The position numbers were made by a program, and so were the translations under genes. Below, piece after piece: positions 692-12,697 of a stretch of 64,000 bases of DNA (the first letter of the stretch is position 1; each line of letters opens with the position of its first letter). Origin of the DNA: Bacteroidales bacterium (GTDB lineage: Bacteria; Bacteroidota; Bacteroidia; Bacteroidales; UBA12077); assembly GCA_028282785.1 (NCBI GenBank), contig JANQHE010000002.1, forward strand, positions 115,581-179,580. Direction: 5' to 3'. The notes under the pieces were generated by a model that worked only from the letters and a program-made list of their open reading frames with translations, had not been told where the DNA came from and did not search any database.

Positions 692-1552
692 TTAAATTCT
701 TTCGTAAATTGTAGGTTTTATCTGTTTTAAAGGTAAATTCATTCCTAAAATAGATTCCGAATGTCCGATGAATAAATATCCTCCTGATTTTAATTTTTGA
801 CACAATCTATTCAACACTTGCTCTTGGGTTTCTCTATTAAAATAAATCAAAACATTCCGACAAAATATCACATCAAAAATATCAGCAACATTATACGATG
901 TATCCATAAAGTTTAATCGTTGGTATCTTATCTTATCTCTTAACAATTTTAGAACACGAACCGTTTTGTTTTCCTTATTTTTACTTCTCAAGAAATATTT
1001 CTTTTTAATATTCAGAGGAACTACATTTATTCGATCTTCTTTATAGATCGCTGTATTCGCCTGTTGAAGTATTTTTGTTGAAATATCCGTACCTAAAATA
1101 TCATAATCGAAACCAGGATATTCACCTCTAAATTCATTCAATATAATAGCAATTGTATAAGGTTCTTCTCCACTTGAACAACCTGCGCTCCAAACTTTTA
1201 AGGTATTTATTCTTTCTTTTTCCATAAAATCAGGTAAGATCTTATCTCGAAGAAAATCGAAATGAACCGGTTCTCTGTAAAAATCTGTTTTATTTGTACT
1301 AACAGCATCAAGCATATGAACTATTTCATTTTTTTGTCCCTCATCACTAAAAACAAAATCGGCATATTCCTTAAAACTAAGTATTTTTAGTTCTCTTAAC
1401 CGTTTTTGTAAACGACTTTGCAACATAATCTTTTTAATGGGAGGCATTTTAATTCCTGATTGCTGAAAAACAAAACTACTTAAACGATCAAAATCTTCGT
1501 CTGTCATTCGAGCATTAAAAATTTTATTTAATAAAGGATCCACCTGTTTCAA
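692..1552 (-). CDS. cheR: Chemotaxis protein methyltransferase CheR
   Basis: 286 aa; CheR N-terminal helical domain, SAM-binding VWSAGCSSGEEPYTIAI, FDVIFCRNVLIYF. Confidence 0.96.
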   Translation of the reverse strand: MKQVDPLLNKIFNARMTDEDFDRLSSFVFQQSGIKMPPIKKIMLQSRLQKRLRELKILSFKEYADFVFSDEGQKNEIVHMLDAVSTNKTDFYREPVHFDFLRDKILPDFMEKERINTLKVWSAGCSSGEEPYTIAIILNEFRGEYPGFDYDILGTDISTKILQQANTAIYKEDRINVVPLNIKKKYFLRSKNKENKTVRVLKLLRDKIRYQRLNFMDTSYNVADIFDVIFCRNVLIYFNRETQEQVLNRLCQKLKSGGYLFIGHSESILGMNLPLKQIKPTIYERI

Positions 1553-1667: not shown

Positions 1668-3722
1668 TTAAAAACTTTCGTAATCATCATCTATCTTTTT
1701 GTTACCAAACATTTGCATTTTAACTCCTGATGATTTTATATTTGTTGTATTCTCTTTAAAATTAGTTGGATTTGTTTTCTTCACTTCTTTATTTTCTGTT
1801 TTATCAGTCAACTGCTTCCTAACATTAAGCTTTTTTTCATCACCTACTTTAAAATAAGTAATGTTTTCTTTTAAATGTTCAGCCTGGCCCGCCAGTTCAG
1901 AAGAACTGGTTGCTAACTCTTCCGAAGATGCAGCATTTTGCTGTGTTACCTGATTAAGTTGTTGAATTGCACTATTCACCTGGTCTGCTCCGGAATTTTG
2001 CTCTAAACTTGCGGCCGAAATTTCCTGAATAAAATTAACAGTTTTTTCAATTTCAGGAACAATATCAAGTAACTGCTTTCCAGCCTCCTCTGAAATCTTA
2101 ACTCCCTCTCGGGACAATTGATCAATTTCATCAGCTGCTACTTTACTACGTTCAGCTAATTTCCTCACTTCAGCTGCAACAACTGCAAAGCCTTTACCAT
2201 GTTCTCCTGCTCGAGCTGCTTCCACAGCAGCATTTAAAGCTAAGATATTTGTTTGGAAGGCAATGTCGTTGACAATGGTAATTTTTTCTGCTATTTCCTT
2301 CATTGCATTCATTGAAACTTCGGATGATGAGCTTCCTTTTTTAATACCTTCAGCCGTTCGTATTACTATTTGTTCGGTTTGTTGTGCATTTTCATTATTT
2401 TGTTGAATATTCGAAACCATTTCTTGCATTGATGAAGATACTTCTTCTGCTGAAGACGCTTGTTGATTTGCCCCGAGGGACATTTGCTGTGCATTTGAAC
2501 TCATTTCATGACTTGCAGAAGTTATATTTTCAGCACTATTATTTACACTTACAACTATCTCCCTTAGTTTTAACACCATTTGATTTAATGCATTTGCCAG
2601 ATCGCCTATTTCATCTTTTTGTTTTATATCAAATGTTGCTGTTAAATCCCCATCAGCAACATTTTGTGCAAAGATCACGCCTTTTTTAAGGGCAGTAGTT
2701 ATATTTTTACTTAGTATAGCAATGATTAATACTAATAATAAAATCCCAACTACACCTATTATTATCGATACTCTAAAATTATTATCGGCTTTTTCCATAA
2801 TTTCTGTCACTGGTACTGAAATGGCCACCGACCATGGTGTATTTGTTTTTCCAACATAAACCGGTACATAAGTTACAAAATGACTTTTTCCATTTTTATT
2901 AATGCTAGTATAACTAAAACTTTTGCCTTTTTTTATTTGTTGATTTACATTATGCATTTTAACATCTTCCGGATAAATTTCCTGAATATGCTTACTTAAA
3001 TAGTTCTTATCAGGATGTCCTGCAATTAAACCTCCATTAGATACTAAATAAGCATAACTACCTGTGTATGGATTAATCTCTTGTATTATATCTTGGAAAC
3101 TTTCTAATGTAATATCAATGGCTACAATACCAACATATCTACCATTTTCTAATATAGGTGCATTTATACTTGTCATTAGAAATTTATCTGATTTATTTTC
3201 TGCAAAAACATCTTCATATGGTTCCCAGATTGACGGTTTAGTTCGTTGTTTAATTTCTGCGTACAATTCAGGATCACCATCTAAACTTCTAAGCTCTGTA
3301 TTACTTTTTATTACACTATTTTCTCTCCAGTAAATATTCACATACCTGCCGGTTGGCTGGTTCCATTCAGGATCAATAGCATTTAATTCCCAACTATCCC
3401 ATAAGCTATAAATATGAGGATTATTTACGAAGATCTCCTCATACATTTTAGCAAATAATTCCTTCCATTGTTCTGTAGGTAAATACCTAAAAGTTCTATA
3501 CGCTTCTGCAAGAGTTTTAACCATTGATAAATCAGAATCAAGTTGAGCTTTTATATCTTTTGCAACCCCATAAGCATAACTATTAGTTTTTTCAATAGCA
3601 TCCTTATAAGCAGCTTTACGTGCATTAATACTTATATAGCCTAATGCCATTGCGTAAATAATAATTGAAGCTCCTATAATAAACAGTTGAACCTTTTGCT
3701 GAATTTTTAAATTTACTCCCAT
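1668..3722 (-). CDS. Methyl-accepting chemotaxis protein with periplasmic Cache-type sensor, HAMP, signalling hairpin and C-terminal DYESF tail
   Basis: 684 aa; N-terminal TM, Cache-like region, HAMP, hairpin tip [40 protein letters not shown]. Confidence 0.96.
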
Positions 3723-3802: not shown

Positions 3803-5878
3803 TCAGAAGCTTTCGTATTGATCATCTATCTTTTTATCGTCATACATTTGTAGATCAATACCGGTTGCATTATTGTTTGCCTTAACCTCTATTTTATTTT
3901 TTTTAGGCATAGTTTCAGATGTTTTGAAATCTTTTTTCATCTCAAAACTTTTCGTTTTATATTCTTTCTTCTTCTTTCCTATTTTAAAATAAGATATATT
4001 CTGTTTAAGCTGTTCGGCCTGGCTTGCGAGTTCTTCTGAACTGGTTGCCAATTCTTCTGAAGCTGCAGCATTTTGTTGAGTTACCTGGTTTAATTGCTGA
4101 ATTGCACTATTTACCTGATCGGCACCGGAATTCTGTTCTAAACTTGCAGCTGAAATTTCTTGAACCAGTTTTGCTGTTTTATCAATTTCCGGAGCGATTT
4201 CTTCCATACGCTTTGCAACCTCTTCATTCACAGCAACACTTGATTTTGATAATACATCTATTTCATCAGCTGCAACCTTGCTTCGTTCTGCAAGTTTTCT
4301 AACTTCGTTAGCAACCACTGCGAATCCTTTTCCATGTTCACCTGCACGAGCAGCCTCAACTGCGGCATTCAATGCTAAGATATTAGTTTGAAATGCTATA
4401 TCGTTTATAATTGATATCTTTTCTGCAATGTTATTAATTGATTTTCTATTTTCCTGAGCAGCATGCATAACTGCTATCATTCCTTCCGCAGCTTTTATAG
4501 ATATCTTTTCTGTCTGTTGTGCATTATCTGTATTTTGCTGAATATTTGAAGCCATTTCTTCCATAGAAGAAGATACTTCTTCTGCAGAAGATGCCTGTTC
4601 ACTTGCTCCTTGTGACATTTGCTGAGAACTTGAACTCATTTCCAGGCTGGCACTTGCAATATTGTCAGCACTCAGTTCAACACCTTCAACGATTTCACGA
4701 AGTTTAATGATCATTGAGTTTAGAGAATTGGCAAGAATTCCAACTTCATCTTTTTGCTCAATGTCTATTGTTGCAGTTAAATCACCTTCCGCTACCCTTT
4801 GCGCAAAATCTACACCTTTGTTAATTGCCTGTGCTAAATTTCTAACCACACTAGTAACAATTAAAATAAATAAAAGTACCGCGATAGCAACTGATACGAA
4901 AACAGTTAACCTTACACTCTTCAAATATTTAAAAAGAATCTCTTCATAAAAAGATGCAGCCACATATGAATTTATTTCAGGTATATATTCGAAATACTGA
5001 AATTTCCATTTTCCCTCCTCTGTTTCGGGCCATTTGTATCTTGATTTGCCATGTCCGTCATCATCAGCTTTAATCTGTTTATAAAAGGTAAATTCTTTAG
5101 CACTTTTACCTTCATTGGTTGGGTGAATAACAAAAGTACCATCATCGCTTATTAAGAAAGGATACCCCGTTTCAAAATAAATTTTATTATCGAAAATACC
5201 TTTTAAACTACTTAAATTTTTTTCCTTTATACCTACATATAATATTCCTTGTACTTCTCCATTAATCCAAATTGGTTCATAAGCTGTAAGATAATAATCA
5301 TCAACAACAAAAGCTCTGCCTCTGTATGTTTGCCCTGACTCAACTACCTGAATTACAGGCGAATTATTCGGGATATAAGTACCAACAGCTCTTTCTCCAT
5401 TTTCTTTTAATACATTTGTTGATATTCTTAAATATCCACCGGGGATTTTCTGAAATATGGTAGAAGTAGCACCTGTCATCTCTTGTATCTTATCAACAAA
5501 GGAATAATTATTGTTAATTCTTTCACCTCCAATTATAAAGTCTTTGATTGTAACTTGTGTAGCATGTTTAGATATTTGATTTATCGCAGTAACTTGAGAA
5601 AATGTATCTTCCATAGAAGGCTCACCTAAGCTCTGAAACATTTCATGTGCCGTTTTTAAAGCATAATTTATTCTATTTTGTCTTTCATTCAACTGAACTT
5701 TGATAATACTAACTAAATCAACAAGTTGTTCATACATTCTTACATCTGTATCTTCAATGATTCTAGTTTTAGTAGCTCTATAAGTTAAAATACCAAGTGT
5801 AGAGATTACTAATATAGTTGCTAAACCTAATATCAGGTTTAGCCGAAGCCCTATTTTTAGGTTATTTAATGATTTCAT
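3803..5878 (-). CDS. Methyl-accepting chemotaxis protein (second, paralogous; different Cache-type sensor) with C-terminal QYESF tail
   Basis: 691 aa; cytoplasmic half nearly identical to the upstream paralog; TM-Cache-TM-HAMP layout. Confidence 0.96.
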
Positions 5879-5935: not shown

Positions 5936-6451
5936 TTATTCTTTGTTTTCTATCTTTTTTTCTCCTTCCTGAGTTTTTTCTTTAACTATTACAACTTCAT
6001 CTACCGAGAATACTTTATCCATATCTAAAAGCATAATAAATTTCTCGTCTATCTTTGCCATTCCATAAATGAAATCAGATTTATATTTACTTCCAATACC
6101 CGGAGGTGGTTGAATTTGATTATCAGCAATTTCGAGAACTGCCTGAACTGAATCAACCAGGGCTCCAACTTGTACTTCATCACCCTCGATATTTACTTCC
6201 ATAACTATTATACATGTGTTGGTAGTGTATTCGGTAGGCGCCATACCGAATTTTATTCTTGTATCCACTACAGGTAAAACTGTCCCTCTTAAGTTGATAA
6301 CTCCTTTCATATATTCAGGTGATTTTGGAACTTCCGTAATTTTTGTCATCTCTAAAATGTTGATGACTTTACTTACATGTGCAGCAAATTCTTCCTCACC
6401 TAAATTAAATGATAGGAAAGAGTTAACTTTTTCTATTGTTTCTTTACTCAT
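5936..6451 (-). CDS. cheW: CheW coupling protein
   Basis: 171 aa; FNLGEEEFAAHVSKVINILEMTKITEVPKSPEYMKGVINLRGTVLPVVD. Confidence 0.96.
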   Translation of the reverse strand: MSKETIEKVNSFLSFNLGEEEFAAHVSKVINILEMTKITEVPKSPEYMKGVINLRGTVLPVVDTRIKFGMAPTEYTTNTCIIVMEVNIEGDEVQVGALVDSVQAVLEIADNQIQPPPGIGSKYKSDFIYGMAKIDEKFIMLLDMDKVFSVDEVVIVKEKTQEGEKKIENKE

Positions 6452-6460
6452 AATTGTCTC

Positions 6461-8524
6461 CTATTTTGATTCTATTTTTAGATTATCCTTTGAAAATTGT
6501 AATATCATTTTGTTAGTATCCATTACCAATGCAACTGTTCCATCACCAAGTATTGTAGCACCGGAAATAATCTCCTGGTTTTTAAACAATTTACCTAATG
6601 CCTTTAAAACAGCTTGATATTCTCCCACTACTTCATCAACTACGATTCCTATTTTTTTGTCTTCGTAACTTACAACAATGATCTGCTCATGATCTTCATT
6701 ATTATTAGGAAGATTGAACTCTTCGCGTAAATAATAAAACGGAATCCGTTCTCCATCAAGAACTATTAGATTATTAAATTTATTTACTACACTTTCCTGA
6801 TTTGCCGAATATATTTTACCAACAACAGACAGCGGAATGATATAATAGTTATCGGCTATTTTAACCAGTAAACCATCGATAATAGACAATGTTAATGGTA
6901 GTTTTATAGTGATAGCAGTACCTTTATTAATTTCTGAATCAACTTCAACTTCACCCCGAACTTCTGCAAGTTTTCGTTTAACTACATCCATACCAACTCC
7001 CCTGCCTGACACATCGGTTACATTCTTAGCCGTAGAAAAACCCGGTTCGAATAATAAATCGAAAATCTCCTTACGGGATAATTCAGCATCTTTACTAATT
7101 AAACCTTTTTCAACTCCCTTTAATCTTATTTTTTCCGTATCAATTCCCGCACCATCGTCTTTTATTTTAATATGCACATTGGTACCTGAATAATAAGCTT
7201 TTAAAAGAATTGTACCTTGTTCAGGTTTACCCGATTCAATTCTTTCATTAGGGGATTCAATACCATGATCAATACAATTTCTTAAAATATGTAATAATGG
7301 ATCTGTTAATGTTTCAATAATGGTTTTATCTAATTCCGTTTCTGCACCTTCTGCTATAAATCTTACACTTTTATTTAATTCATTCGAAAGGTCACGAACT
7401 AATCTTTGAAAGCGCGTTAGCATTGTTTCAATTGGAACTAAAACAATATCAAATGCATTATCTCTTAATTGCCGAGTTAATTTTTGAACATTTTCCGCAA
7501 TAGAAACCAATTCCGAACTTCCCGAGTGTTCAGCATAAAGGCTTAAGCGAGCTTGTGTGGTTACGAGTTCACTTACAAGATTCATTAAATTATCCAGTTT
7601 TATTGAAGAAACTCGAATGCTTGATATTATATTTTCTTTAACACTTGGAGCATTAGTAAATCGCTTACTCAAATCATCTACCTGTTCGTCAGAGATTTTT
7701 TGTTCCGTATATTTTTTAACAATTGCCTGAATTTCTAATAATCCTACATCGTTTTTAGATAAAGCAAGGTTTGAAATCTCTTGCATTATATCCATGTTTT
7801 GAACAATGTTATGGTCTACTATTTCATTTATCTCCAGTTTACAGTCGTCTTCAACAAAAATAAAAACGTCAGATATTGAATTTACATCTTCCGAGGTTGC
7901 TAAAATTGCTTCCCAATAAACATAACATCTGGTTATATCAATATTTTCAGAATCAGGAACTTTATTAAAATGAGAAAATACTTTACAATCACCTAATCCG
8001 TGTAATTCATCAATTAAGAACAGTGGGTTGGTACCATCGTTAAAAATATAATCGTCAGGCTCGAAATATATGTAATAACTCTTTACTCCTGAAGATTCTT
8101 TTTCAGAACCACCTTTCTCCTCTATAATGCTATTTTTATTATCGTCTTCAATTATTTTTTTTATTTGTACCACCAGTTCGGTGTGTTTGTTTTTTGCTTG
8201 TTCTAAACTTAAATCAGGATCAGATAAAAGGGTTTTAAGATGATCTACGGATGCTAAAGTAACATCAAGCAAATTTCTTGTAATCTTTAATTTACTATTC
8301 CGGACTAAATCATAAATATTTTCCAGATCATGAGTAAATTCACTCAGCTTAGCAAATCCAAACATTGCACCACCGCCTTTAAGCGAATGCATGTCTCGAA
8401 ACACACTTTCAATAATTTCATTATTTTCTGTATCATTCTCAAGTGCCAGAAGAGATTGTTCGAGGTTTTCAATCTTTTCAGCTGCCTCTTCCAGAAATTT
8501 ACTTCGGAATTTATCTATATCCAT
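6461..8524 (-). CDS. cheA: Chemotaxis histidine kinase CheA
   Basis: 687 aa; Hpt motif MHSLKGGGAMFGF, P3 dimerisation, HATPase (HILRNCIDHGIE, GRGVGMDVVK), CheW-like P5. Confidence 0.97.
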   Translation of the reverse strand: MDIDKFRSKFLEEAAEKIENLEQSLLALENDTENNEIIESVFRDMHSLKGGGAMFGFAKLSEFTHDLENIYDLVRNSKLKITRNLLDVTLASVDHLKTLLSDPDLSLEQAKNKHTELVVQIKKIIEDDNKNSIIEEKGGSEKESSGVKSYYIYFEPDDYIFNDGTNPLFLIDELHGLGDCKVFSHFNKVPDSENIDITRCYVYWEAILATSEDVNSISDVFIFVEDDCKLEINEIVDHNIVQNMDIMQEISNLALSKNDVGLLEIQAIVKKYTEQKISDEQVDDLSKRFTNAPSVKENIISSIRVSSIKLDNLMNLVSELVTTQARLSLYAEHSGSSELVSIAENVQKLTRQLRDNAFDIVLVPIETMLTRFQRLVRDLSNELNKSVRFIAEGAETELDKTIIETLTDPLLHILRNCIDHGIESPNERIESGKPEQGTILLKAYYSGTNVHIKIKDDGAGIDTEKIRLKGVEKGLISKDAELSRKEIFDLLFEPGFSTAKNVTDVSGRGVGMDVVKRKLAEVRGEVEVDSEINKGTAITIKLPLTLSIIDGLLVKIADNYYIIPLSVVGKIYSANQESVVNKFNNLIVLDGERIPFYYLREEFNLPNNNEDHEQIIVVSYEDKKIGIVVDEVVGEYQAVLKALGKLFKNQEIISGATILGDGTVALVMDTNKMILQFSKDNLKIESK

Positions 8525-8889
8525 TATCTTAAAACTTTTTTAAGTGCTGCAATTAGTTTGGCAGGTACAAATGGTTTAATTATCCATCCGGTTGCTCCAG
8601 CTTCTTTAGCTTCCATTTTTTTTGAAGACTGAGACTCAGTAGTAAGAAATAAGATTGGAATTCGTTTATATTGATCCATTGCTCGAACGTTTTTTATAAA
8701 CTCTATACCATTCATCTCTGGCATATGAAGATCGGTTATTATTAGATCAATATGTGAACCATCCAGAAACTTTATAGCATCTTTTCCGTCCACACCAACT
8801 AATACATTGTAGCCTTCATTCTTTAGGGTGAAGCTTACAACTTCGCGTATACTTTCTGAGTCATCGACAATTAAGATAGTTTTACTCAT
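8524..8889 (-). CDS. cheY: CheY-like response regulator
   Basis: 121 aa receiver; DDSES, DLIITDLHMPEMNG, TTES, KPF; stop overlaps cheA start (TAATG). Confidence 0.93.
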   Translation of the reverse strand: MSKTILIVDDSESIREVVSFTLKNEGYNVLVGVDGKDAIKFLDGSHIDLIITDLHMPEMNGIEFIKNVRAMDQYKRIPILFLTTESQSSKKMEAKEAGATGWIIKPFVPAKLIAALKKVLR

Positions 8890-8901
8890 AATGTATCAAT
8901 A

Positions 8902-9219
8902 TTATTTAATTATTTTTGTTATATCTGTATTATTGAACAGAACGTTCTGCTCTTCATTTAATTCAATATTTAATATTAAAGTCTTTTTTGCTTTTTCTGC
9001 TGTTTTTTGAACTGATCTTATTAACTGAACAAAGGTTAAATCCATATTTTTTATTGATTTTCCAATAATTTCGATAATTTCGTATTTATTTACCGCTTCT
9101 ATTATATCATCTTTAACATCCTCAATTGAATAAATTGTAAGTTCATCAATTAAATTGATTTCTACTTTATTTTCACCTTTTTTTCTTGAAGGTTTAACCT
9201 GAATTCTCTTTGTGCTCAT
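8902..9219 (-). CDS. Small STAS-domain-like protein of the che operon
   Basis: 105 aa; KVEINLIDELTIYSIEDVKDDIIEAVNKYEIIEIIGKSIKNMDLTFVQLIRSVQKTAEKAKKTLILNIELNEE resembles the STAS fold pattern. Confidence 0.7.
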   Translation of the reverse strand: MSTKRIQVKPSRKKGENKVEINLIDELTIYSIEDVKDDIIEAVNKYEIIEIIGKSIKNMDLTFVQLIRSVQKTAEKAKKTLILNIELNEEQNVLFNNTDITKIIK

Positions 9220-9230
9220 AAGTTAGATTT

Positions 9231-11042
9231 TTAAAAAAACTCTATTTCATCATTTTCTTTAATATCAAAATCTATATCAGCCTCATCACCTTTTGCAACT
9301 TTCTCATGAATGCTATGTTCAGTTTGCATGGTATAATATTGCTTAATATTTTCTAAATTTTCTTCTCTTGAAATTCCGTCTAACTCCTTATTTAATTTAA
9401 GTTTATAGTTTACAGTATTTAGCTCCGTAATTATTTCCTGAATTACCTTTTCGAAATACTCGTAATATTTAATTTTTGAAATAGAATTTTTAATATTTTT
9501 TATTACTAATTTACTATCATCGTTATTCTTTTGTATCAGTATTTCAATTTCTTTTCCTGATATTTTTAATGAATCAATTTGAGTTTTTAGTTCAGAAAAA
9601 TCTGTTTCACCTAATAAACTTTGATCTGTTTTATTTACAAATCCTTCAATATTATTTTTTAATGTAAATAAATACTCATACAATGAGTTAAGTTTTTGTG
9701 AGTTATCTTTCGTTTCTTTTAATAAATTAATGAATTGGCTATTTGCCTTTTTAAGATTTGAATCATTATTAAAAAGCTTCTCAAAGTATTTTTTTGATTC
9801 GTTTAACGATTCCTCTAGCTTTAAAGATAAGTTTTTAAAGTTTTCTATCATGTTCTCTGCTTGAAGATACTTATCATGAATATTATTTAGTTCTTCATCA
9901 AGGATATTAGTTTGCGTGTTATAACTATCGATAAATATATTTGCTTTATTTATATAAGAATCAATTCTTTCAAACATTCTGTTATAGTTAAGTTTTCCGT
10001 AAGAATAAACTCTTTGAGATTTATACGTAATATCCTGTATATTATCTCCGATTAGAATGAAATTATCAATAATAGCCTCTATTGCGGATTGATATTCTTT
10101 ATTTGCCTGTATTAGCTGCGCTGCTTGTAACCCGGAAATATCTCGTATTCGTAAGAAACACTTTACTTTTTCATTTAATTTATTTATTTCCAAATCGGTT
10201 TCATTAAATTCAACCAGTTCTTTAATTAAATCCTTATGTGTATTCTGGATGTGCTCCATCTTTTGTTTTATAATATCCTGATATTGAAGTTTTTTAATTA
10301 TTTCTGCATTGCTGTTTTCTAAATCTCCAATTTTTTCCGTTATATAGGGAATTAATTTTGTGTTATCTTCATTTTTTTTATCAATTAACTCAATGCTTGA
10401 CTGAATTTCTTTTAATAAACATTCAAGATTGAGTTCATTTAATCCGCTTAAATCTTTAATTCGTTTATAAGAATTTTTGGTTATTTTGCTTAGTTGATTG
10501 AAAGAGTTAATGATATTATCGGTAATGAGCTTAATAGCTTCAATCAACTTTTCTGTTTGCAAATAAATATTTTCCAAATATTCATTTTCTGATTCTTTAC
10601 TATAGGAAAGAGATACTTTTAAGTTTGCAATTAAGTAATTTAAGCTCATTAAATTTTGACCATAGCTTTTAATCGGGAAAAAAATATGTCTTATATGATT
10701 AGATAGTTTCTCCAATTGATCAGATATAACAACAATTCTATAATCCAGAATTTCAAACTGGATCTTCAGTTTTTCATATAGCTCATTAATAATTTGATAA
10801 AGATTATTATTCTTATCAATATTTGATGTATTACACACTATCCCAATATTCTCAGATATTTGGTTTGACTGGCTATAAATTTCTTTATAGCTTTTATTCA
10901 ACTGTAAAAAATCTTCTGCCGATCTATTATGTAATGATATTAATCTCTCATCGATTTTTGTGAAAAGATCTGTAATATCTTTAACCGAGTACGTTTTCAG
11001 CAGTGAATCTAAATGTATAGCAAATTCTTCTTGTTCAGACAT
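9231..11042 (-). CDS. Long coiled-coil protein with CheZ-like motif (LQYQDIIKQKMEH); candidate CheY-P phosphatase or scaffold
   Basis: 603 aa, no signal peptide or TM seen, mostly helical; DIIKQ matches CheZ DxxxQ spacing; located between STAS and REC genes of the che operon. Confidence 0.55.
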   Translation of the reverse strand: MSEQEEFAIHLDSLLKTYSVKDITDLFTKIDERLISLHNRSAEDFLQLNKSYKEIYSQSNQISENIGIVCNTSNIDKNNNLYQIINELYEKLKIQFEILDYRIVVISDQLEKLSNHIRHIFFPIKSYGQNLMSLNYLIANLKVSLSYSKESENEYLENIYLQTEKLIEAIKLITDNIINSFNQLSKITKNSYKRIKDLSGLNELNLECLLKEIQSSIELIDKKNEDNTKLIPYITEKIGDLENSNAEIIKKLQYQDIIKQKMEHIQNTHKDLIKELVEFNETDLEINKLNEKVKCFLRIRDISGLQAAQLIQANKEYQSAIEAIIDNFILIGDNIQDITYKSQRVYSYGKLNYNRMFERIDSYINKANIFIDSYNTQTNILDEELNNIHDKYLQAENMIENFKNLSLKLEESLNESKKYFEKLFNNDSNLKKANSQFINLLKETKDNSQKLNSLYEYLFTLKNNIEGFVNKTDQSLLGETDFSELKTQIDSLKISGKEIEILIQKNNDDSKLVIKNIKNSISKIKYYEYFEKVIQEIITELNTVNYKLKLNKELDGISREENLENIKQYYTMQTEHSIHEKVAKGDEADIDFDIKENDEIEFF

Positions 11043-11062: not shown

Positions 11063-11443
11063 TTATGTTTTAATTGTTAGTGCATTACCTATTTTTCCAA
11101 GAAATTCCGGAATATTTATTGGTTTTTCAATTACATCAATAGCTCCCAGTTCCTTAGCCATTAACCTATTTTCTTTATTAGCAAAAGCGGTAACAATAAT
11201 TATAGGAATATCTTTGAAAATTCCATTCGACTTTAATCTTTTCAATAAATCAAATCCGTTTTCATTTGGCATAAGCAGATCTAATAAAATTAAATTAGGA
11301 ATACTTCTTGTTAAAGAAACAAGAGCTTCCTTTGCACTATAAGCTTTTTCTACATTACATCCAGCATCTTCCAGAATAGCCTCCAATAAAACCAAATTGG
11401 TTTCCGAATCATCCACAATAAGTATGTTATTTCCTTTTATCAT
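11063..11443 (-). CDS. Single-domain response regulator (receiver only)
   Basis: 126 aa; ILIVDDSETNLVLLEAILEDAG, NLILLDLLMPNENG, VTAF, EKPI. Confidence 0.9.
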   Translation of the reverse strand: MIKGNNILIVDDSETNLVLLEAILEDAGCNVEKAYSAKEALVSLTRSIPNLILLDLLMPNENGFDLLKRLKSNGIFKDIPIIIVTAFANKENRLMAKELGAIDVIEKPINIPEFLGKIGNALTIKT

Positions 11444-11642: not shown

Positions 11643-12326
11643 ATGATTACAAATAAACCTAATATTTTCGACACCCTTTTACCGGAAGGTGATATTTTAA
11701 CAGATCAACAAGTTGAAATTATTAAATCGAACGGTAAAGTAATTTCATTTCAAAAAAAGGATGTTATTTTCAGGCAAGGTACAATTACTTCACATGTAAT
11801 GTTTTTGGAATCAGGACTTGTTAAACTTTTCAGAGAGGGAAGAAATGAGAGATCTTTAATAATTAAAATTGCCAAACCAGGCGAATTTATTGGTTTGGTA
11901 TCAATGTATGGTAATGAAATTTATCATTATTCCGCTACTGCTGTTGAAGATGCTAAAGTGTTTTTTATTGATTTTAAAATCTTTAATTCGATTCTATTAG
12001 AAAATGGAAATTATGCGATTTACCTGTTAAAAGAAATAGCAAATGACAATTTAGGTATTTTTGATCGAATTATTTCCCAGTATCATAAACAACTCCCAGG
12101 TAAAATTGCCGATATTATTTTATACTTTTCAACTCACATCTATAATTCAGAGACTTTTGAATTTCCTATAACCCGCAATGAGTTAGCTGAACTTGCAGGT
12201 ACAACTAAAGAAAGCTTTATCCGAACTCTTGCCGAATTTAAGAACGATAAAATTATTGAAATTCAAGGTAAATTGATAAAAATTAATAGTATCGATATTA
12301 TAAAAACTCTTAGTAGGCTAGGATAA
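11643..12326 (+). CDS. Crp/Fnr family transcriptional regulator
   Basis: 227 aa; cyclic-nucleotide-binding fold (MFLESGLVKLFREGRNERSLIIKIAKPGEFIGLVSMYG) and HTH ITRNELAELAGTTKESFIRTLAEFKNDKIIEI. Confidence 0.93.
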   Translation: MITNKPNIFDTLLPEGDILTDQQVEIIKSNGKVISFQKKDVIFRQGTITSHVMFLESGLVKLFREGRNERSLIIKIAKPGEFIGLVSMYGNEIYHYSATAVEDAKVFFIDFKIFNSILLENGNYAIYLLKEIANDNLGIFDRIISQYHKQLPGKIADIILYFSTHIYNSETFEFPITRNELAELAGTTKESFIRTLAEFKNDKIIEIQGKLIKINSIDIIKTLSRLG

Positions 12327-12697
12327 TGGAAAAATACAATGTTCTTATTGTTGATGACATTTTAATGAACAGGGTTTTACTCAAAGAACTATTGTTCGAT
12401 GTAGCCAATGAAATTAAAGAAGCAAAAAATGGCCTTGAAGCATTGGATATTCTAAAAGCAAACAGTATCGACATAATTTTAATGGATATTGAGATGCCAA
12501 AGATGAATGGTTTGGAAACAACCAAATATATAAGAACCAAATTACCCCATCCCCAAAATAATTTACCTATAATAGCATTAACTGCTCATAATCCGAATGA
12601 TTTTTTTGAAGATTTTTCAGAAGCAGGATTTAATGATCTTCTTACTAAACCATATTCTTTTGAGAAAATTAAAAAAGCAATTGATTCAGCATTATAG
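12326..12697 (+). CDS. Response regulator receiver protein, translationally coupled to the Crp/Fnr gene
   Basis: 123 aa; DDILMNRVLLKELL, DIILMDIEMPKMNG, LTAH, TKPY; TAATG overlap with upstream stop. Confidence 0.92.
   Translation: MEKYNVLIVDDILMNRVLLKELLFDVANEIKEAKNGLEALDILKANSIDIILMDIEMPKMNGLETTKYIRTKLPHPQNNLPIIALTAHNPNDFFEDFSEAGFNDLLTKPYSFEKIKKAIDSAL

Follow-up and report, generated by a model that had tools for sequence, protein, structure and literature searches.

Signal termination is essential in che systems. In the phosphatase CheZ of E. coli, the catalytic pair is D143/Q147; the Gln orients the attacking water, and the Asp contacts the Lys of the receiver. In proteobacterial CheZ, an F(Y)Q element is conserved beside the DxxxQ (PMC7750401). 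In rhizobia, CheT is described as a DxxxQ protein whose target is one of the two CheYs present, and it has been reported or proposed that CheT and the STAS protein CheS sort phosphoryl groups between the two receivers (PMC12654446).

The che systems of the Bacteroidales described here, apparently without flagella, seemed to have no phosphatase. Could the long helical protein encoded ahead of cheY and cheA serve as one? A literature search, weak because most subscription papers lay outside it, turned up neither this family nor any MCP-type protein carrying a CheZ site.

The che operon and the distribution of CCP

The window, by which we mean the whole 64,000-nucleotide stretch of Bacteroidales DNA that was analysed (contig JANQHE010000002.1, from an assembly of 81 contigs), contains a che cluster transcribed in the order receiver, CCP, STAS-like, CheY, CheA, CheW, two MCPs, and CheR (Table 1). 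"CCP" is the name we use for the 603-aa helical protein. Its open reading frame was confirmed as real and lies on the minus strand, a point absent from the first-pass annotation. The gaps from the receiver through CCP and the STAS-like gene to CheY are 20, 11, and 12 bases, and CheY and CheA overlap; hence, the cluster is operon-like. In most loci that extend that far, CCP lies immediately ahead of STAS-CheY-CheA, and the upstream receiver is present in most loci, not in all.

Table 1. Features of CCP and of the che cluster around it
Feature	Position	Strand	Evidence
CCP, tandem MCP-type hairpins (predicted) with CheZ-type motif	9231..11042	-	603 aa, ATG start; no Pfam/NCBIfam family above threshold
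N-module (residues 20-346), predicted to be a helical hairpin whose tip lies near 147-152; a helix break at 253 adjoins the motif	10005..10985	-	AF2 pLDDT 86; Foldseek
Motif LQYQDIIKQKMEH, residues 252-264, candidate catalytic D256/Q260	10251..10289	-	invariant in 32/32 orthologues; aligned to CheZ D/Q via short CheZ-like proteins
Degenerate second copy YYEYFEKVIQEIITELN, residues 526-542	9417..9467	-	N/C-half profile alignment, Prob 80%
Variable acidic linker, and the conserved tail IEFF at the C-terminus	9234..9275	-	almost all of the 32 orthologues end in [IVL]E[FL]F
Single-domain receiver encoded ahead of CCP, candidate for an alternative substrate	11063..11443	-	PF00072 E 1e-26
STAS-like protein, CheS-like position	8902..9219	-	orthologues match PF13466/PF01740; window copy weak, E 0.27
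CheY, likeliest substrate (candidate)	8524..8889	-	PF00072 E 9e-29; adjoins CCP-STAS in most loci
CheA	6461..8524	-	Hpt, H-kinase_dim, HATPase_c, CheW domains
CheW	5936..6451	-	PF01584 E 1.5e-38
MCP, tail DDQYESF	3803..5878	-	
MCP, tail DDDYESF	1668..3722	-	
CheR	692..1552	-	PF01739 E 9e-61

Several features of the surroundings are recorded here in their own right. The STAS-like protein between CCP and CheY has D-L-T at the position at which SpoIIAA-type proteins carry a phosphorylated Ser, and the order STAS-CheY-CheA is reminiscent of alphaproteobacterial cheS. A divergent open reading frame at 11643..12697 (+), which by eye looks like a Crp/Fnr-type regulator, is followed by a single-domain receiver (PF00072), and many related loci have open reading frames of matching size and order beside their che clusters. 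In one locus (L050, genome G059), CCP lies on the strand opposite CheY-CheA; this genome is the sole CheX-positive one among the 147 relatives.

Among these relatives, CCP co-occurs with CheA: CCP was present in 38 of 147 genomes, CheA in 52, and both in 36. The corresponding comparison (36 of 52 CheA genomes vs. 2 of 95 others) gave a Fisher p of 2e-19, a value that is optimistic because of fragmented or incomplete genomes and shared descent. A profile search of the 16 CheA genomes without CCP, run without a positive control, was empty; with none detected there, a che system can apparently run without CCP. Recognized phosphatases were rare or absent: among the 147 relatives, CheZ was found in none, CheX in one, and CheC in two. 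FliM/FliN was found in 0 of 44 CheA-positive genomes. The first-pass annotation had seen no CheC, CheX, or FliY in the window, and a domain search bore this out for the whole source genome, which has no CheZ, CheX, CheC, or FliM/FliN/FliY-type domain. CCP itself has no Pfam match to CheC, CheX, or FliY, and such an identity was rejected. The source genome does encode GldM, a component of gliding/type 9 secretion. A phage search and a search of viral contigs with CheZ returned nothing, and a short motif query against plasmids gave one insignificant match, an annotated MCP of Methylobacterium.

The DxxxQ motif, its second copy, and the tail

The claim that a CheZ-like motif lies around 10251-10289 held, as the codons of D256 (10275-10277) and Q260 (10263-10265) fall inside that range. 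The D-x-x-x-Q spacing is by itself weak evidence, since CCP contains 24 [DE]xxx[QN] pairs. In an alignment of 32 CCP orthologues, with identity down to 21%, the 256/260 pair alone was conserved at both positions (32/32 and 32/32), so that the Asp and the Gln both withstood the proposed check of their conservation. The lowest-entropy 12-residue segment of the whole alignment starts at residue 253 (0.43 bits vs. a mean of 2.35), and the invariant residues include Q253, D256, I257, I258, Q260, and H264. Furthermore, the DxxxQ is preceded in every row by [YF][QHN], with Q or H in nearly all, and this [FY]-[QH] pair corresponds to the F(Y)Q element of CheZ (PMC7750401). In the AlphaFold2 model, D256 and Q260 lie on a helix.

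An internal duplication with a diverged second copy had also been proposed, and comparison of the two halves of CCP supports it. The N half aligned with the C half at a probability of 80% (E 1.5e-5), where the reversed control reached 13% and heptad shuffling left no more than 1.5%, and the motif fell on the KYYEYFEK segment; the halves of the full-length relatives L102-L105, described below, aligned similarly (78%). Residues 526-542 form a true, though diverged, repeat of the motif region, with Asp/Glu at 528 and Lys at 532 in place of the Gln. Across the orthologues, the Asp/Glu of this copy is mostly kept and the Gln is lost.

The C-terminal tail of CCP, [IVL]E[FL]F, is conserved, and its sequence differs from that of the C-terminal CheY-binding peptide of CheZ. 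The MCPs of the window and its relatives end in [YF]ExF, which resembles the CheR-docking pentapeptide found at MCP C-termini. Given this likeness to the local MCP tails, the partner docked by the tail of CCP could equally well be CheR/CheB or CheY.

The helical scaffold and its relation to CheZ

Long helical proteins readily resemble one another by chance, and a comparison was counted only if it had controls. AlphaFold2 predicted full-length CCP as all-helical (pLDDT 81, pTM 0.59) and the N-module alone with similar confidence (pLDDT 86, pTM 0.54), the moderate pTM leaving the global arrangement in the model unsettled. The top Foldseek matches of the N-module were MCP cytoplasmic domains, namely 2ch7 (Thermotoga), 3zx6, and 3g6b, with E values of 8e-4 to 1e-3 and TM up to 0.60 for 2ch7, and alignment places the predicted tip of the hairpin (about 147-152) on the MCP tip, the part of the receptor that binds CheA and CheW. 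CheZ (1kmi) was absent from the top 50 matches of both the N-module and the full-length model. The full-length Foldseek search was unspecific and was not used as evidence. A PDB sequence search with the full CCP profile returned just generic coiled coils, MCPs among them, and was also set aside; weak Pfam matches such as DOCK and MCE were treated as helical noise.

The CCP profile, run on 399 genomes of the phylum, yielded four full-length relatives, several motif-matching proteins, and many weak coiled-coil matches. The full-length relatives (L102-L105) come from other Bacteroidota classes, occupy the same operon place, and carry the motif; they aligned with CCP at a probability of 99.9% (E 2e-31 over 578 columns; reversed control 7%). 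They match PF00015 (MCPsignal) with E values of 2e-15 to 5e-11, and against an MCP profile their C-module scored 96% and their N-module 21%, tip on tip. The window CCP has no match to PF00015, which was found in L102-L106 and L108, and the halves of the Bacteroidales CCP reached less than 1% against the MCP profile, the CheA/CheW-binding tip not being recovered. Taken together, the relatives that share an MCP domain and the motif, and the MCP fold match of the N-module, indicate that CCP is, as judged from sequence and predicted structure, a tandem of MCP-derived hairpins with a CheZ-type site.

Two further proteins, L106 and L108, contain one MCP domain, followed by IQFQDVLRQK and an IELF-type tail; their motif rests on a pattern search and hhalign, as a 14-row MAFFT alignment misplaced both at the motif. 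Encoded beside CheY/CheA (L106 7057-8415, L108 7684-9060 (-)), they are possible receptor-phosphatase hybrids. The source genome has ten MCP-domain matches, and none of these proteins has the motif.

How, then, is CCP related to CheZ? The window protein has no match to PF04344, which touched 2 of 32 orthologues with a best E of 3.9, and hhalign of CCP against six E. coli-type CheZ sequences gave a probability below 1%; direct membership in the CheZ family at the sequence level was rejected accordingly. The idea that CCP is an enlarged CheZ was likewise dropped, as the full-length relatives with MCP domains and the MCP match of the N-module point to a receptor origin. A link to CheZ was found through three of the motif-matching proteins from the phylum-wide profile search, short Bacteroidota proteins (L109-L111, 211-224 aa) that are encoded beside CheY in che clusters and have an LQFHDIV[ST]QK motif and SQADIDALF-type tails. 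L109 lies above the PF04344 cut-off (E 1.8e-7; 31.7 bits vs. 30.7), and L110 and L111 gave E values of 2.3e-6 and 1.7e-5. The profile alignment of CCP with these proteins had a probability of 70% (E 4e-5) and matched the Asp and the Gln of the motif each to its counterpart; five of six heptad-block shuffle controls were at or below 1% and one reached 33%. Thus, of the proposal that CCP is a CheZ-like phosphatase, the CheZ-type DxxxQ under strict conservation stands, and the direct CheZ profile match fails, the alignment being reached solely through these intermediates.

Proposed function and comparison with known systems

We consider it probable that CCP is a cytoplasmic auxiliary CheY-P phosphatase built on a receptor-derived scaffold in the Bacteroidales che system. 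Two MCP-type helical hairpins, having lost the receptor tip, would be fused to form CCP, and the N-module would present D256 and Q260 on one helix, like D143/Q147 of CheZ. By analogy, Q260 would insert into the active site of the receiver in its phosphorylated state, where it would position the water for attack, while D256 would contact the conserved Lys of that receiver. CheY, whose gene is the second one downstream, is the most likely substrate. The role of the degenerate C-module is probably to complete the helical bundle and not to catalyse, and a partner may dock through the acidic, flexible linker and the conserved tail IEFF. CCP would probably provide the means of ending the signal, which otherwise seems to be missing from these systems. 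Three observations count against this reading: the failed direct match to PF04344 and to E. coli-type CheZ, the absence of CheZ from the top 50 Foldseek matches, and the 16 CheA genomes in which CCP was not detected.

The MCP ancestry, the operon place ahead of STAS-CheY-CheA, and the resemblance of the tail to the MCP pentapeptide would also suit a soluble chemoreceptor relic or scaffold, in which the rods would arrange CheA/CheW/CheY or the STAS protein and the DxxxQ helix would bind receivers without dephosphorylating them. We regard this as unlikely, because the CheA/CheW-binding tip is lost in the Bacteroidales proteins, which have no MCP match, and because pure binding predicts no strict Asp and Gln, whereas the exact CheZ catalytic pair is invariant. 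That CCP is a coiled-coil protein of some other role with an accidental DxxxQ is very improbable and already disfavoured: the abundance of such pairs and the want of a direct CheZ match would allow it, but the invariance is limited to the 256/260 pair, and the bridging proteins in che clusters share the helix motif.

A variant that is compatible with the phosphatase reading, and to which we give somewhat under a one-in-three chance, makes the upstream receiver, or both receivers, the substrate, with CCP sorting phosphoryl groups. The receiver gene lies directly upstream in most loci, and rhizobial CheT, also a DxxxQ protein, is described as acting on just one CheY of a pair (PMC12654446). On the other hand, three loci (L048, L058, and L060) have CCP-STAS-CheY-CheA with no such receiver directly upstream, which makes CheY the more constant partner.

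More tentatively, and with slightly better than a one-in-three chance, L106/L108 (one MCP domain and a DxxxQ helix) and L102-L105 (two MCP-like modules, one putative active site) may be steps between receptor and phosphatase, CheZ-type sites and receptor stalks forming one line in which the Bacteroidales lost the receptor function and kept the phosphatase.

If the phosphatase reading is true, the Bacteroidales use a receptor-shaped phosphatase, the missing step becomes testable, the CheZ active site is linked to chemoreceptor stalks, and an unannotated family heading many che operons could be named.

The distinct architecture anticipated by the first-pass annotation is borne out, in a che operon without a recognized phosphatase. 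CCP resembles CheZ in the [FY]-[QH]-D-[IL]-x-x-Q helix motif, the predicted helical hairpin, the place in a che operon near cheY, and the linker with a conserved C-terminal tail. It differs in its length (603 aa vs. 214 aa), its tandem modules with one degenerate site, its MCP-type predicted fold, its tail (IEFF vs. DDLLxSLGF), its apparently non-flagellated hosts, and the absence of a direct profile match. With MCPs, it shares the long antiparallel helical hairpin, and its relatives L102-L105 still match PF00015, but it has no sensor or membrane segment, has lost the receptor tip, and carries the CheZ motif. L109-L111 share the motif and the position beside CheY, and the PF04344 match is theirs; they differ in their single-hairpin size and FliM/CheZ-type tail. 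CheT, as a review describes it, resembles CCP in being a DxxxQ protein whose fold is predicted to be CheZ-like and whose che cluster also encodes a STAS protein, CheS; on that description, CheT and CheS would be the nearest functional parallels found (PMC12654446).
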